IMG/VR virus record: IMGVR_UViG_3300022868_000107
Coordinates: 1 to 22,355 of that record
Source: a virus
DNA length: 22,355 nucleotides
Reading direction: 5' to 3' (one strand)
Position 1 is the stretch's first letter, and every line of letters starts with the position of its first letter. A model generated the notes under the pieces. That model was given only the letters and a program-made list of their open reading frames with translations. It ran no database searches and was not told the origin of the DNA. The translations under genes and the position numbers were made by a program. Shown here one piece after another: positions 9,790 through 22,355 of the stretch.

Positions 9790-10971
9790 TTAAACTCCTA
9801 AATCTAAGAATCTTTTAAGGTCATTTATTCTGTCGATTTTTTCCCATGTAAATCCTTTCTCACATCTTCCAAAGTGTCCACCAGAAGCCGTATTTCTGTA
9901 TACAGGTCTTTTTAAATCAAGACTCTCAATTATTCCTCGTGGAGTCATATCGAACACATTTCTAATCGCTTTAGTTAATTGATAATCTGACACTTTTCCT
10001 GTATCAAACGTATCCACCTTTATTGACACAGGCTCTGAAACTCCGATTGCATAGGCAAGCTGTATCTCGCATCTCTTGGCAAGCCCTGCCGCGACGATGT
10101 TTTTAGCGATATATCGTGCCATATATGCACCTGACCTGTCGACCTTTGAAGGGTCTTTTCCAGAAAAGCAGCCACCACCATGACGAGCGATTCCACCGTA
10201 GGTATCGACAATGATCTTACGCCCCGTAACTCCACAGTCTCCTTTAGGACCACCTATAACGAATCGTCCTGTAGGATTTATATGGTAGAGAGTCCTATCG
10301 TCGAGAAGGTTTTCAGGGATGACATCTTTGATGAGAGCAAGCATATCCTTATGGATAGTATCATAGTCGACGTCGGCTGAGTGTTGCGTTGAGATTACGA
10401 CAGCTTCGACACGCTGAGGGGTATTATTTTCATCATATTCTACGGTTACCTGGCTTTTTGCGTCGGGACGAAGGTAGGCAATATCATCATTGACACGACG
10501 GTTTTGCAACTCTTTGATAAGAGCGTGTGATAGCATTATTGGTAACGGCATAAGTTCTGGTGTTTCATCACAAGCATATCCGAACATCATGCCCTGATCT
10601 CCAGCGCCTTGCTCTTTATGAAGCCCCTCTCCGTTTGTAACGCCTTGCGATATATCCTTAGACTGCTTCTTGATATTGACAAGTACAGCACAGGACTCCG
10701 AGTCGAATCCTAAAGATGAATCATTATATCCAATTTCTTTAATAACATTTTTTGCTATATCTGAGCAATTAACGTAAGTCTTTGTTGTTATCTCACCAGA
10801 TATCACAACAAGTCCTGTTGATACAAGTGTTTCACATGCAACTCGAGATTCTGGATCATCGGTGAGACATGCATCAAGAACGGCGTCTGATATCTGGTCT
10901 GCTATTTTATCAGGATGACCCATCGAAACGGATTCAGATGTGAAAAATGATATTGATCTTGAATTTTCCAT
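9790..10971 (-). CDS. metK: S-adenosylmethionine synthetase
   Basis: Makes SAM from methionine and ATP. It is full length (393 residues; bacterial enzymes about 380-400) with all main signatures in order: [17 protein letters not shown] with His19 and Asp21, [54 protein letters not shown] and [19 protein letters not shown]. The usual GGGAFSGKDP has Cys for Ala here. No damage is visible, so the enzyme should be active. It lies between a DNA methyltransferase gene (24 nt upstream) and terS (stop 4 nt away), inside the late operon, and is unusual cargo for a phage. AAGGGG precedes the ATG by ten nt. Confidence 0.96.
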
Positions 10972-10994: not shown

Positions 10995-12230
10995 CTAAGA
11001 TCTTAAAACACCAAAATTTATCCCTGTTTTTTCATTAGTAGCCTGCTTCCCTGTAAAATCCTGCCATCTATTTATTATGACGTCACAATACCTCGGATCT
11101 AGCTCAATAGAATAACTTGTCCTTCCAGTCTTTTCACATGCCAATACTGTTGTTCCTGATCCGCAAAACCCGTCAAAAACAACAGCTCCTTTCCTTGAGC
11201 TATTAGTGACTAAGTACTCAAAAAGAGCTACAGGCTTCATTGTAGGATGTTCAGCATTTCTTTGAGGTCTGTCAAATTCAAGAAGCGTTGTTTGTTTTCT
11301 ATCAGTTTCCCACGTATGAGCAGCTCCATCTTTCCATCCATAAAGACATGGCTCATGCTGCCAATGATAATCCTGACGTCCTAAAACAAATGCATTCTTA
11401 GCCCATATCAGGCATTGTCTTACTTTTAAACCAACATCTCTACATGTACCTCTGAAATTATACCCTTCTGAATCAGCATGCCAAATGTAAAACGATGCGC
11501 CCTCTTTCATTATATTATGTGCAGATGAATAGCTATCTTTAAGAAACGACCTGAAACTTTCGTCATTCATCGAGTCATTTTCTATTGTTAATGAGTCCGC
11601 AGTCTTTCCCTCGTAAGCAACATTATAAGGAGGGTCAGTCAACCATAAATCAGCTTTAACATTACCCATAAATGATTCAACTAATTCAATATCAGTGCTG
11701 CTTCCACATAAAAGCCTGTGATCTCCAAGCTTCCATATATCCCCTACCCTTGACATAGGCTTTTCTGGCAACTCTGGAAGCTCGTCAGGATCAGTAAGAC
11801 CCTCTGTTCCTCCCTCTCCATCTTTTTCAAACCCTATCTCTTCGAAGTCTTTTTCAGTAAAACCAGTAGTATCAACATCAAATCCAAGAGCCGAAATCTC
11901 TTCAAACTCTATGCGAAGTAGTTCATTATCCCACTCTGCAAACTCTGCCATCTTATTCACAGATATGCGAAATGCTTTCAGTTTTGCTTCTGTCATGTCA
12001 TCAGAAATAATGACAGGGACTTTTGCCATATTTAATTTTTTAGCAGCTTTAAGACGAAGGTGACCGTCAATTATAGTACCGTCTGACTTAACCAATATCG
12101 GTATTCTAAAACCAAATTCTCGTATACCTGCGGCGAAATTATCTACTGCGTGATCGTTTTTCCTAGGATTCCTTGCGTACTCGATCAATCTTTCGATATC
12201 CCAGTACTCTATCTCCATCTTTTCTTCCAT
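10995..12230 (-). CDS. ParB-domain DNA methyltransferase fusion (beta-class N6/N4 amino MTase)
   Basis: 411 residues in two parts. Residues 1-130 form a ParB/Srx-like domain with GTIIDGHLRLKAAKKLN (51-67). Residues 160-410 are an amino-methyltransferase with DPPY (199-202), then HPTMKPV (328-334), then FDGFCGSGTT (352-361) and ELDPRYCD (376-383). Motif IV precedes motif I, which defines the beta class. It should methylate adenine or cytosine amino groups in a specific DNA site using SAM. No cognate endonuclease is seen, so it is an orphan. A strong site (AAGGA, six nt) precedes the ATG. The ParB part may aid DNA scanning or binding; that is inferred. Confidence 0.92.
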   Translation of the reverse strand: MEEKMEIEYWDIERLIEYARNPRKNDHAVDNFAAGIREFGFRIPILVKSDGTIIDGHLRLKAAKKLNMAKVPVIISDDMTEAKLKAFRISVNKMAEFAEWDNELLRIEFEEISALGFDVDTTGFTEKDFEEIGFEKDGEGGTEGLTDPDELPELPEKPMSRVGDIWKLGDHRLLCGSSTDIELVESFMGNVKADLWLTDPPYNVAYEGKTADSLTIENDSMNDESFRSFLKDSYSSAHNIMKEGASFYIWHADSEGYNFRGTCRDVGLKVRQCLIWAKNAFVLGRQDYHWQHEPCLYGWKDGAAHTWETDRKQTTLLEFDRPQRNAEHPTMKPVALFEYLVTNSSRKGAVVFDGFCGSGTTVLACEKTGRTSYSIELDPRYCDVIINRWQDFTGKQATNEKTGINFGVLRS

Positions 12231-13147: not shown

Positions 13148-13555
13148 CTAGTATTTTAATTTAATGCATGTTCTCGGTATCTCACTATACAGCTTTTTAG
13201 CCTCTACTTTCCATATCTGATTGTCATCGTGGTATATCAAACCCGACATTACATCAAAAAAAAGCTTCTGTGCATTATCAATATCGATTTTCTTCGTGTG
13301 CTTGATTCTGTTCTCAAGCATTAACACCCGATTACGCTTTGTGGTGCTTTTGACAATGGGCATATAAAAGACGATATCAACTTCTATTGCTGAATGTATG
13401 ATATCACCCTTAAACTGCTGTGAGATTATATTACCGATGGACTTCTTCATCTTCGCCGCCGGATCGTAAACCCTCGTAAACCCACCGCATCGCGAAAACC
13501 TGGGACGTGGCTGCCCCTTCGGATCTCCTGGTACTGTAATCGTTATCTCCGGCAT
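13148..13555 (-). CDS. rusA: RusA-type Holliday junction resolvase
   Basis: About 135 residues with the RusA layout: GDPKGQPRPRFSRCGGFTRV near the N-terminus, then HTKKIDIDNAQKLFFDVMSG and YHDDNQIWKV. The Asp residues of IDIDN and HDD are the expected metal ligands. The enzyme cuts four-way junctions made during replication and recombination so that DNA can be packaged. I start at the ATG at 13555, five nt after GGGG; a GTG at 13561 would add two residues. It follows a strong promoter and precedes the tRNA by 5 nt. Confidence 0.9.
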   Translation of the reverse strand: MPEITITVPGDPKGQPRPRFSRCGGFTRVYDPAAKMKKSIGNIISQQFKGDIIHSAIEVDIVFYMPIVKSTTKRNRVLMLENRIKHTKKIDIDNAQKLFFDVMSGLIYHDDNQIWKVEAKKLYSEIPRTCIKLKY

Positions 13556-13656
13556 AATCACCCCAAAGATTAAGCATCGTCTTCGTTACACTATTATTGA
13601 AACCCTTGCGATTCCGTAGTTCAATAGCTTTAAATTGCGTTGTCAAGTATGTCACG

Positions 13657-16292: not shown

Positions 16293-16712
16293 CTAAAACG
16301 GCAAGTCATCGCCGAACGTCATACTCGGAGCAGCTTCAACCGGAGTAGCTCGCTGAACATTCGTTTGAGTATTTGTGTAGTATCCGCTGCCCGTGCTTTC
16401 TGCAATCTCGTCTTTCGTGGGTAGAGGTTGCGACTGCTGCGTACCTTCTCCATAAGAATGATAGGCGTCTTTTATCGAATTTTGGAAAGACCAGTATTTA
16501 TCTTTCTCTGGAAATCCGACATATGTACGATACTTATCGACGCCATCTTTATTATATTTACGAGAAGGCAATGAGGCAAAGATCTCGCCTTTATTATTCT
16601 CAACTATTCCAATATCATTGATTGTAATGCCCATATCGACGAGTTCAACGTCGCACATCGCTTTCGTTCTTCCGCTTTCGAATCGGTAGAGTCTAGTTAT
16701 TTTTATTTGCAT
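16293..16712 (-). CDS. SpoVG-like nucleic-acid-binding protein with an SSB-type acidic C-terminal tip
   Basis: Residues 1-85 look like SpoVG: ITRLYRFESGRTKAMCDVEL, then ITINDIGIVENNKGEIFASL and the PSRKYNKDG turn, matching the SpoVG beta-sheet plus basic region. The middle (85-125) is a Gln/Pro/Thr-rich linker, and the protein ends TFGDDLPF. That acidic-hydrophobic end is the mark of bacterial SSB (usual form DDDIPF), which recruits repair and replication partners. No OB-fold SSB is seen in this window, so this protein may fill that role. AAGGAG lies five nt before the ATG. It overlaps the Hc1-like gene by 20 nt. Confidence 0.8.
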   Translation of the reverse strand: MQIKITRLYRFESGRTKAMCDVELVDMGITINDIGIVENNKGEIFASLPSRKYNKDGVDKYRTYVGFPEKDKYWSFQNSIKDAYHSYGEGTQQSQPLPTKDEIAESTGSGYYTNTQTNVQRATPVEAAPSMTFGDDLPF

Positions 16713-17349: not shown

Positions 17350-17925
17350 TTATTTACCTTCTTGTCGAAGATCGTGCATATTGAAAAGGTCTATTATAGT
17401 ATTCTCTGTCGCGAAAAGTCTGCTTGATATTCTTTGACCATAAACATCATAAAATTCTTTCTTTGACAGGTTGCTAGTTATAATAGTCGGAGACATCTCT
17501 TCATATCTGTAATCTATAGCATCAGTTAAAACCTCTTCACGCCAGTCTGTATGTCCTGACGAACCTATGTCATCTAGTATGATGATATCATCATCAATCA
17601 ATGTCTGCATGTAGTGAAGATAATCTCCGTTTGAAGAACTTCCGATTGAAAGCCTTATAAGCCTTAGAAACTTTCGCTCATCATAGGCTCTTATGCTACT
17701 AACCTTGTCATGAAGTTCCGCAAGCAACGCAGAGCATAGATATGTTTTTCCTACGCCTGCTGTGCCTATTACCACTAAGAAGTTTTTGGGTTTAGCGAGC
17801 CATCCCGATATCCGTTCAGAAGCTTTAAGATTAAACCCTGTTCTGGCAAGGCTTGCTCCGATGAATCTCTTTCCGAAAAAAACTCGTTGTAACTCTTCTG
17901 ATTTTTGTGTAGCTTGGATTTGCAT
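17350..17925 (-). CDS. DnaC/IstB-type helicase loader ATPase
   Basis: 191-residue AAA+ ATPase. Walker A GTAGVGKT (54-61), Walker B DIIILDDIG (113-121), sensor I TIITSN (147-152) and Arg-finger region QRISSRLF (164-171) are all present. DnaC/DnaI-type loaders put the replicative helicase on the origin with the initiator. The ATG at 17925 has AGGA ten nt upstream, inside the initiator gene, which it overlaps by 151 nt in another frame. The N-terminal 50 residues are needed for the usual family layout, so I keep this start. Confidence 0.88.
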   Translation of the reverse strand: MQIQATQKSEELQRVFFGKRFIGASLARTGFNLKASERISGWLAKPKNFLVVIGTAGVGKTYLCSALLAELHDKVSSIRAYDERKFLRLIRLSIGSSSNGDYLHYMQTLIDDDIIILDDIGSSGHTDWREEVLTDAIDYRYEEMSPTIITSNLSKKEFYDVYGQRISSRLFATENTIIDLFNMHDLRQEGK

Positions 17926-18782
17926 TTTGCATTATTCCTGTTTTGTGATTTATGTGATGAGCCTTGAGAGCTGTTTTCTCTTGAGGCTCTTTTTTTGTGT
18001 TCTCTGTTTCTTACTATTGTTCCTTCTAAGAACTTCCACCAGTCATAAATAGCGCTATCGTAGTTTATAAGCGCTTTCCATCCATAGTCTATTTCTTCTA
18101 TAGACCAGTCAACTTTCTTATTTACAACAACTCTTATAAGCTCCGTTCTATTAATTATCGTTGTCGACCCATCCTTCTCCTTGATCTTTATCTCAGAAAT
18201 AGGCGACCTTTCTGGGTCGTCCCTTACAACTTCCGAATTAGGATCTTTCTGATTAGGATCATTACATGGGTGATTTTCACCCTTAGGCTCAAGGGTGATT
18301 TTCACCCATGGGTGATTTTCACCCTTAGGCTTTTCATCTTTTGTTTTCTTGCCTAAGCTCCATTGTAGAATCCAGCTGTCTCTACAAGCCTTACCGTTTT
18401 CTTTATTGTAAAGCTCATCAAACCTCTTTCCCATTTTTTCTTGATTTTGATATAAAACATAAGACGATCGCTTCTGACCGCCAATTCCAGTAAAGGAAAC
18501 GATTGAAAGAAGAGGAACTCCCATTTCTACTGTTGGAAGTTTTAGCTCTCGTATTATCTTCTTTAGCTTTTGATCGCCCCACCCCAGTTCTTCCATTATC
18601 GTATCTTGTATTTTTGTAAACGTGTCAAGCTCTGAAATATAAGCTAGGAACATAAAATGATCGGAGTTTAAGCGTATTGCGTTGCCGTCTTTAGGCATAA
18701 ACGATAGATATCTTAGTATCTTTGGAATCTGAACGTATGGTGATTTTGCATGTACTGTAAAAGTGTCTTCTTGATCTGTCAT
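17775..18782 (-). CDS. Phage replication initiator (winged-helix N-terminus, DnaD-like layout)
   Basis: 335 residues. An N-terminal helix-rich domain (DHFMFLAYISELDTFTKIQD, about 42-61, then a winged-helix-like LGWGDQKLKKIIRELKLP) is followed by a charged linker with the repeated peptide PKGENHP, then a C-terminal part with IDYGWKALINYDSAIYDWWK and a basic Ser/Asn/Lys-rich end. The order initiator then loader is typical of phage replication modules. The linker region carries a cluster of dyad DNA repeats that may be the origin. GGAG lies five nt before the ATG. The last 50 codons overlap the loader gene in another frame. Confidence 0.75.
   Translation of the reverse strand: MTDQEDTFTVHAKSPYVQIPKILRYLSFMPKDGNAIRLNSDHFMFLAYISELDTFTKIQDTIMEELGWGDQKLKKIIRELKLPTVEMGVPLLSIVSFTGIGGQKRSSYVLYQNQEKMGKRFDELYNKENGKACRDSWILQWSLGKKTKDEKPKGENHPWVKITLEPKGENHPCNDPNQKDPNSEVVRDDPERSPISEIKIKEKDGSTTIINRTELIRVVVNKKVDWSIEEIDYGWKALINYDSAIYDWWKFLEGTIVRNREHKKRASRENSSQGSSHKSQNRNNAKCKSKLHKNQKSYNEFFSERDSSEQALPEQGLILKLLNGYRDGSLNPKTS
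18265..18331. repeat. Iteron-like repeat cluster inside the initiator gene (candidate replication origin)
   Basis: Three exact copies of the dyad GGGTGATTTTCACCC lie at 18268-18282, 18293-18307 and 18310-18324. The first and third are part of a 25-bp exact direct repeat (18265-18289 and 18307-18331). The middle copy is in a different reading frame, giving VKIT where the others give GENHP, so the repeat is kept as DNA, not as a peptide. Lambda-type origins with iterons inside the initiator gene are the precedent. Confidence 0.72.
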
Positions 18783-20131: not shown

Positions 20132-20322
20132 TGACAGATCACATACTAACAATGGCGATAGACGCTCACTACGAGCCGACTCTACTTGAATGCTTTCACT
20201 GCAAAGAAATGTTCTACGACGAAATAGTCTACGAGTCAAAACATAATGAGGAGTTCGTCTTTTGCAGCGAAGAATGCAAAGATGAGTTCGATACTAACAG
20301 AGAACAAGAGGAAGTAGCATAA
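20131..20322 (+). CDS. 63-residue zinc-finger-like protein
   Basis: The ATG at 20131 has GAGGAG eight nt upstream. Two Cys pairs, CFHC (residues 20-23 or so) and CSEEC (about 46-50), separated by about 22 residues, are spaced as a treble-clef or zinc-ribbon site. The end is acidic. Both neighbours overlap it by 1 nt. No family name is known to me. Confidence 0.65.
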   Translation: MTDHILTMAIDAHYEPTLLECFHCKEMFYDEIVYESKHNEEFVFCSEECKDEFDTNREQEEVA

Positions 20323-21206
20323 TGTCACTGATACCGCATAAGAAGATCGTAGATATATACGCTAGAATGGGTTATGAAGAGGCTTCTGTATATCCTTCTG
20401 ATGAGATAACAATAATGAGGTCAAAGCACGATGGAGAGTTCATGACGATAACGGGGTCTTCATGGAAAAAGGGTTATCACGACAAATTCGAAGAAGAAAA
20501 AACAGAGATAAACAAACAAAACGAGGAAGGCAAAATGAATGAAAATATCAAAACTACGGCAGAAGAAGAAAGTAAAGACGTTAACACTGAAAACAAGGGA
20601 GGCTTCACCATCACGCATGGCGGCGTTACGTCTACGGATGGAATTGGAAAGCTCTCTTTAGCTTTAGCAAAAGCGCAGGGATCTTTCGATCCTGTTACAA
20701 AGGATAAAGTTAACCCACATTTTAAAAGCTCCTTTGCATCTATAGACTCAATATTAAAATCGACAAGAGTTCATCTATCTAATAATGAGCTTATCTTAAT
20801 GCAATTCCTATCCGGAGATCAGAATACAGTAATAATAATAAGCCGAATAATGCATTCTTCGGGGCAGTGGATACAATCAGAAGTTTCGTGCAAAACTGAA
20901 CGTAATACAGCGCAGGGGCTCGGAAGCGTAACAAGTTATATGAGAAGATATGCTATGGCAGCTCTTCTTAATATATCAGCCGACGAAGACGAAGACGGCA
21001 ACGCAGCATCTTTTATAGATAAAAACCAGATTTCATCAATAGAAAGAATGCTCGAAAACTATCCCGAAGTTAGACGTAAAATGATTGCTGAATATAAAGA
21101 ATTCAAGCTTATGCCTGCCGATTTATATCTTGAGAACATTGAAAAGATAAATAAAAATATAAAATATATTGATGACAAGAGACTGGCTGACAAGCAAAAA
21201 GGATAA
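20322..21206 (+). CDS. erf: ERF family single-strand annealing protein with extra N-terminal region
   Basis: 294 residues. Residues 107-230 show the ERF domain: GKLSLALAKAQGSFDPVTKD, NPHFKSSFASIDSILKSTR, SGQWIQSEVSCKTERNTAQG, then SVTSYMRRYAMAALLNISAD. ERF proteins anneal complementary strands in phage recombination, usually with an exonuclease; a YqaJ-type nuclease follows here. The first 71 residues are not part of the family and read like a small separate protein. An internal ATG at 20535 with GAGGAAGG upstream would give an ERF of usual length. Both products are possible. Confidence 0.88.
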   Translation: MSLIPHKKIVDIYARMGYEEASVYPSDEITIMRSKHDGEFMTITGSSWKKGYHDKFEEEKTEINKQNEEGKMNENIKTTAEEESKDVNTENKGGFTITHGGVTSTDGIGKLSLALAKAQGSFDPVTKDKVNPHFKSSFASIDSILKSTRVHLSNNELILMQFLSGDQNTVIIISRIMHSSGQWIQSEVSCKTERNTAQGLGSVTSYMRRYAMAALLNISADEDEDGNAASFIDKNQISSIERMLENYPEVRRKMIAEYKEFKLMPADLYLENIEKINKNIKYIDDKRLADKQKG

Positions 21207-21948: not shown

Positions 21949-22355
21949 ATGAAAACATTTAATCTTACCCAGAAATCAGAAGAGTGGAAAAGCTTTAGAC
22001 TTAAGCATTTGGGTGCGTCGGAGTGCGCGTCAATATTAGGCGTTTCTCAATACGAGGGAAATACCCCTTTAGATGTTTGGGAGAAGAAGACGGGAAGAAG
22101 TTTTGATACTTTCAACGGTAATAAATTTACTGAATACGGTGAGAAACTCGAGCCTTTAATTATGGAAGAGTATTCACGCTTTAAAAATATGGTCTTTGAA
22201 AACCCCACATGTGAGAGCGAAACGCATCCATTTATATCTGCTTCTTTCGATGCACATAATTTTGAACATAATATGATAGCAGAATATAAAGCGAGCATGT
22301 ACCCCAAACTCTCAAACTGCTTACGACTAAACAGCGTCGAGGCTGTGAAGGAGAT
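21949..22355 (+). CDS. YqaJ/lambda-exonuclease-type nuclease (3' part missing)
   Basis: The ATG at 21949 follows AAGGGG by eleven nt and the frame runs 135 codons to the window end. The visible part shows KSEEWKSFRLKHLGASECAS, then ILGVSQYEGNTPLDVWEKKT, GEKLEPLIMEEYS, SASFDAHN (Asp101) and AEYKAS (Glu112, Lys114). These are the family's metal- and DNA-binding motifs, spaced like the Asp-Glu-x-Lys set of lambda exonuclease. It would trim 5' strands to make the 3' tails annealed by ERF. The start is complete; the C-terminus lies outside the window. Confidence 0.88.
   Translation, partial: MKTFNLTQKSEEWKSFRLKHLGASECASILGVSQYEGNTPLDVWEKKTGRSFDTFNGNKFTEYGEKLEPLIMEEYSRFKNMVFENPTCESETHPFISASFDAHNFEHNMIAEYKASMYPKLSNCLRLNSVEAVKE

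Follow-up and report, generated by a model that had tools for sequence, protein, structure and literature searches.

Introduction

The acidic tail of single-strand binding proteins (SSBs) is generally regarded as part of the OB-fold SSB. In E. coli this tail, which ends in the SSB-Ct hexapeptide DDDIPF (PMC5872125), is a docking site common to at least 17 genome-maintenance proteins (PMC7145534). The SpoVG family (PF04026), described from B. subtilis, S. aureus and B. burgdorferi, has another fold, and its characterised members bind RNA as well as duplex DNA, the latter with a degree of sequence preference (PMC3688583, PMC12472547), a basic doublet (K50-R51 in S. aureus, R53-R54 in B. burgdorferi) being required for binding to DNA (PMC3688583). 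Genes for SpoVG are also known from phages, where they have been interpreted as genes of sporulation or as auxiliary genes (PMC10294663, PMC8940887). A further point of comparison is the early module of Lactobacillus phage c5, which runs from ORF25 to an exonuclease, an SSB and NinB/Orf, the OB-fold SSB ending in NDYPF and lying four genes downstream.

Here we describe a protein from a viral record of 22.4 kb that is probably a fragment (the whole stretch of 22,355 nucleotides is termed the window), which consists of a SpoVG domain, a disordered linker and an SSB-type tip, and has no OB fold. We refer to this architecture as SpoVG-tip. It shares with E. coli SSB the order of an N-terminal nucleic-acid-binding domain (in SpoVG-tip a putative ssDNA-binding one), a disordered linker and a terminal DDxPF, the hexapeptide DDDIPF itself recurring in many relatives, and it shares with phage SSBs a place among replication and recombination genes, but unlike SSB it lacks the OB fold. 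Similarly, domain, length and predicted order of strands and helix are those of the SpoVG family, from which it differs by the added linker and tip and, in phages, by its setting in replication modules. We found no account of SpoVG in Marinimicrobia, or of SpoVG with an SSB tail, in the part of the literature covered, such that novelty is provisional. An SSB tail on an unrelated fold, present throughout an order of marine bacteria and in phage replication modules, together with resident SSBs that are tail-less in part of that order, would make the movement of a docking hub between proteins testable, and would suggest a possible function for phage spoVG genes previously assigned to sporulation or to auxiliary roles.

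A SpoVG domain joined to an SSB-type tip

The preliminary description had taken the N-terminal 85 residues of the window protein to be SpoVG-like and the C-terminus to be a linker with the SSB-type end GDDLPF, and both assignments held. Although the initial family search overlooked the gene, hmmscan matches residues 1-85 to PF04026 over profile positions 1-81 of 82 (E=1e-7), the score of 32.4 bits exceeding the curated cut-off of 29.6. A profile built from the window protein and its relatives matches the solved SpoVG structures 2i9z, 2i9x and 2ia9 (E=1e-17 to 5e-15), and AlphaFold2, supplied with an alignment of 15 relatives, predicts a domain of six strands and a C-terminal helix at a pLDDT of about 90, followed by a disordered tail in which the linker falls below 50 at residues 91-94 and 99-129. 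Structure prediction of the two parts, which had been proposed as a check, thus returned a confidently predicted domain and a disordered tail, with no OB fold; likewise, there was no match to PF00436. In Foldseek searches the model resembled that of the Clostridium phage phiCP7R SpoVG in a viral library (E=1e-4), and gave nothing significant against the PDB. The score against the NCBIfam SpoVG equivalog NF009749 is 22 bits, far below the cut-off of 108, and we therefore regard the protein as a member of the SpoVG family and not as the orthologous regulator.

As in characterised family members, a basic doublet follows a PS motif: R51-K52 occupies the site of the S. aureus and B. burgdorferi doublets required for DNA binding. 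Elsewhere the doublet is mostly QK in Neomarinimicrobiota, where the first residue is usually Q, and RQ in one viral relative (L174), which counts against a role in SSB work.

The C-terminus reads TFGDDLPF, and P138 and F139 are invariant across the alignment of relatives, among which the linker of the window protein is not alignable. Residues 86-139 thereby hold both a disordered linker and the acidic DDxPF tip of bacterial SSB, and residues 46-139 give weak alignments with the C-termini of NCBIfam SSB models (E=0.02-0.09). As a measure of chance, endings of the form (D/E)(D/E)(I/L/V)PF occur in only 2 of 6,409 six-frame ORFs of at least 60 aa from 80 terminase-selected viral loci, and no other ORF in the window ends in (D/E)(D/E)xPF. 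A weak profile match to anti-RecBCD protein 2 (E=0.11) was treated as chance.

Replication and recombination genes around the SpoVG-tip gene

The features of the window are collected in Table 1. On the minus strand the order is the 335 aa protein, the DnaC-like loader, the zinc-ribbon-like ORF, the Hc1-like ORF and SpoVG-tip, with RusA further downstream, while the ERF and YqaJ genes lie on the opposite strand. The Hc1-like ORF overlaps the start of the SpoVG gene by 20 nt, and the two are possibly translationally coupled. Most of the replication and recombination inventory of the preliminary description was recovered, namely the loader, ERF, RusA and the exonuclease; its initiator corresponds to the 335 aa protein by position, with no family match.

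Table 1. Features of the SpoVG-tip gene and its surroundings in the window
Feature	Position	Strand	Basis or remark
SpoVG-tip protein ORF	16293..16712	-	139 aa
SpoVG domain, residues 1-85	16458..16712	-	Pfam PF04026; AF2; Foldseek
Linker, residues 86-133, mostly predicted disordered	16314..16457	-	AF2, alignment
SSB-type acidic tip GDDLPF	16296..16313	-	sequence; alignment
Hc1/HctA histone-like ORF, 76 aa	16693..16923	-	Pfam PF07432 25.2 bits, cut-off 23.5; NCBIfam HctA weak
Cysteine-rich protein, 98 aa	16960..17256	-	primase-type zinc-ribbon similarity, weak, below cut-off
DnaC-like helicase loader	17350..17925	-	phrog_50 E=3e-32
335 aa protein in initiator place	17775..18782	-	without family match; position only
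RusA Holliday-junction resolvase	13148..13561	-	PF05866 E=2e-30
ERF single-strand annealing protein	20322..21206	+	PF04404 E=1e-21
YqaJ-type exonuclease, cut by window end	21949..22355	+	PF09588 E=1.4e-18; complete in overlapping contig L002

The overlapping contig L002 extends 1,251 bp past the right end of the window. Neither the in-house SSB profile nor family scans of the early ORFs found an OB-fold SSB in the window or in these additional 1.25 kb, in keeping with what had been said of the window at the outset. Direct searches of IMG/VR and a phage collection gave no homologues of the window protein, and none of 50 viral records with the same terminase contains SpoVG, so that the gene does not appear to travel with the packaging genes. 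Further along the same record, an S-adenosylmethionine synthetase resembling metK (9790-10971, minus strand) can be read from the sequence, adjoined by a fusion of ParB_N and a DNA methylase at 10995-12230.

Recurrence in other phages

A degenerate DNA pattern composed of a SpoVG motif, a gap, (D/E)DxPF and a TAA stop was run against all 84,980 species of genome_contigs and gave 12 loci, 11 of them SpoVG domains ending in DDDIPF, EDDIPF or DEDVPF; ten of these carry Neomarinimicrobiota or Marinimicrobia titles, and one is titled only 'bacterium'. Viral SpoVG-tip proteins amount to seven distinct sequences in eight contigs (L147, L165, L167, L169/L175, L171, L174, L176), all of the contigs being fragments. 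This set derives from two pattern scans and a profile scan, and most members were retrieved by a pattern that demands the tip, L147 and the window protein being the viral examples found without that demand. A survey of viral SpoVGs for acidic tips, suggested in the preliminary description, is thus positive for these seven, with the bias just described, and negative for the gut-virome proteins L003-L011, which likewise carry a SpoVG domain on sequences filed as phage but in which, where they could be read to the stop, the tip is absent; these were set aside. The C-terminus of L147 is AGLPF, preceded by a masked stretch. L174 shares a central insertion with the window protein, with which it pairs weakly in a tree with few resolved forks.

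The gene neighbourhoods are again those of replication. In G187, G183/G186 and G181 SpoVG-tip lies directly 3' of an uncharacterised gene, separated by at most 4 nt or overlapping it slightly, and is followed downstream by a DnaD-like loader (phrog_2514, E about 1e-31 where scanned) and, in G187, by RusA. In G180 it precedes a Lin1244-type initiator, and in G185 it stands between an HTH_36 initiator and a gene that looks RusA-like by eye. No PF00436 match was found in the eight viral records, and the in-house profile, which detected the SSBs of two Lactobacillus phage controls, found no OB-fold SSB in the eight contigs; the search covered OB-fold SSBs and, in part, other folds. In seven of the eight records SpoVG-tip is the only ORF ending in (D/E)(D/E)xPF. 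A weak SSB-profile match in L180 was set aside as a structural-type protein by its sequence.

The first viral scan, with a strict DDLPF, gave 30 loci with tipped proteins other than SpoVG. DDLPF ends several unrelated viral families (L012, L016, L021, L030, L033, L013 and others), and at least some of these proteins do not have the look of an SSB by eye.

SpoVG-tip and the resident SSB of Neomarinimicrobiota

Conservation in bacteria was surveyed without requiring the tip, the genomes being species representatives, mostly MAGs, for which no completeness figures were available. SpoVG occurs in 13 of 120 sampled Neomarinimicrobiota genomes and in 34 of 41 genomes of one order of the phylum, that of G055. 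All 37 Neomarinimicrobiota proteins with a readable stop terminate in -PF, in 33 cases as (D/E)(D/E)(I/L/V)PF, on linkers of about a dozen to about sixty residues that cannot be aligned with one another; conservation of the tail in relatives, on which the earlier proposal depended, is therefore borne out. Sister SpoVGs are found in 19 of 296 genomes of the phylum to which G188 belongs, a MAG with a Bacteroidetes title, and 18 of the 19 are without the tip. The contrast between 37/37 and 1/19 indicates that the tip is a specific addition and not a property of the domain. The single exception, L284 of G226, ends in STDLPF and is possibly an independent gain outside Neomarinimicrobiota. In both contigs looked at for chromosomal context (L128 and L133), SpoVG-tip lies directly upstream of an apparent succinate dehydrogenase cytochrome b gene.

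These bacteria also have an OB-fold SSB: searches recovered it from 36 of the 41 genomes of the order and from every other Neomarinimicrobiota genome in which it was sought. In 13 genomes that lack a tipped one (G051, G054, G055, G058, G060, G191, G192, G193, G195, G197, G199, G203, G204), however, the main OB-fold SSB ends at the OB fold, with no remnant of a tip in the 300 nt downstream; tail-less SSBs account for about a third of the genomes in the SpoVG-tip order. The tail-less proteins are L141-L145, L248-L252, L254, L256, L258 and L259, and no other tipped OB-fold SSB was found in most of their genomes. SpoVG-tip is present in 12 of the 13 genomes with only a tail-less SSB and was not found in the remaining one, G199, which is probably a MAG; it is thus sometimes the only carrier of the tip found in a bacterial genome. 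Both kinds of SSB, one tail-less and one tipped, occur in G201. Conversely, nearly all SpoVG-lacking Neomarinimicrobiota examined carry a tipped SSB, G080 being ambiguous. A Fisher test on the table of tail-less SSB and SpoVG-tip (12/24 vs 1/19) gives p=0.02 with relatedness ignored, and the tail-less label must change two to three times on the SSB tree, one change being owed to a divergent row. Many Neomarinimicrobiota carriers of SpoVG-tip also have a tipped OB-fold SSB, in which case the tip on SpoVG must often be redundant. Of 14 genomes with a tail-less SSB, only 8 yielded PriA_C, which counts against a docking role.

Interpretation and alternatives

The order of parts, the synteny, the conserved tip, the failure to find any OB-fold SSB in the phage contigs and the tail-less SSBs of the bacteria together speak for a carrier of the SSB docking peptide that has no OB fold. 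On balance, and with some reserve, we favour the reading in which SpoVG-tip is such a carrier, probably serving as an SSB replacement in phages and perhaps providing the tip in trans in some bacteria. The suggestion that a different fold does SSB work accordingly survives in part. It agrees with the fold, the tail, the replication setting and the failure to find an OB-fold SSB in the window, the adjoining 1.25 kb or the eight contigs, and it is the leading interpretation for the phages, where the protein probably stands in for SSB; in the bacteria SpoVG-tip coexists with an OB-fold SSB, and 'second carrier of the tip' is there a more exact term than 'substitute'. In some of them it perhaps supplies the docking tip in trans.

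In the mechanism that we envisage, the SpoVG domain would sit on ssDNA, or on structured nucleic acid, arising from phage replication and from recombination by ERF and YqaJ, while the terminal D-D-L-P-F would dock in the SSB-Ct pocket of proteins with which the host repairs DNA and restarts replication, such as RecO, PriA, RecQ and primase, and so bring them to the phage DNA, with SpoVG-tip in the role otherwise filled by an OB-fold SSB. In the one Neomarinimicrobiota order with a near-universal chromosomal SpoVG-tip, the same protein would supply the tip in trans where the OB-fold SSB has no tail. The affinity for ssDNA, the docking of partners and the functional replacement of SSB that this entails are what we infer from the architecture and its setting. 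A more elaborate version, in which the SSB of the order has been reduced to its DNA-binding core and forms a two-protein system with SpoVG, which gives the tip in trans, while phages, that of the window included, use SpoVG-tip as a full non-OB SSB, is tentative, and we would sooner doubt than adopt it.

The duplex DNA and RNA binding of tested SpoVGs counts against a protein that coats ssDNA, and the phage may use the SSB of its host. In this context the protein could be a hijacker or decoy and no SSB at all, the SpoVG domain binding certain sites in phage DNA or RNA while the tip captures host SSB-interacting proteins in competition with host SSB. The tested SpoVGs are indeed sequence-selective DNA- and RNA-binding proteins (PMC3688583, PMC12472547), and a complete tipped SSB is also present in many bacterial carriers; yet in a dozen bacterial genomes with a tail-less SSB no tip carrier other than SpoVG-tip was found, and its conservation as a chromosomal gene there is something for which a decoy role does not account, such that we consider this explanation rather unlikely.

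Alternatively, the tip might recruit nothing, the C-terminus folding onto the basic surface of the domain as a nucleic-acid mimic, after the proposal made for Hfq. RNA chaperones, Hfq among them, are regulated by acidic tips at the C-terminus (PMC5606850), and members of the SpoVG family bind RNA, but what persists across unrelated linkers is the terminal P-F after acidic residues, the signature of the SSB-Ct, and not acidity alone, and autoregulation of this kind appears improbable. The same conservation in all 37 Neomarinimicrobiota proteins, of an ending that is rare in random ORFs, bears on the very improbable case that the protein is a SpoVG regulator of the ordinary kind, picked up by phages in the way of other regulators of sporulation or septation, with a tail of no importance; while earlier readings of phage spoVG genes would favour it, both the position of the gene in replication modules and the distance from the equivalog cut-off argue to the contrary.

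The gene preceding SpoVG-tip

The genes directly upstream of SpoVG-tip in other phages (L179:9780-10331, L183:11313-11699 and L164:4072-4647) contain motifs that recall ERF/Rad52-like annealing proteins (NKTSALENCETSAVGRALG). These motifs suggest a putative annealing protein, an identity that was given no weight in the interpretation above. Family searches offered no confirmation: neither Pfam nor NCBIfam gave a match, the PHROG matches were only to families of no assigned function, hhalign gave no similarity to the ERF of the window, Foldseek produced no confident match and there was no sequence relative in the PDB.

Homologues of the gene that precedes SpoVG-tip in G181 occur in Lactobacillus phage c5, as ORF25, and in Pelagibacter phage HTVC106P. 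Unlike c5, G181 has SpoVG-tip directly downstream of this gene, and no OB-fold SSB was found there. In HTVC106P the next gene encodes a different small protein ending in SKQIPF (gp15, L296:3461-3829), which belongs to another family and is possibly a further carrier of the tip that is not an SSB.
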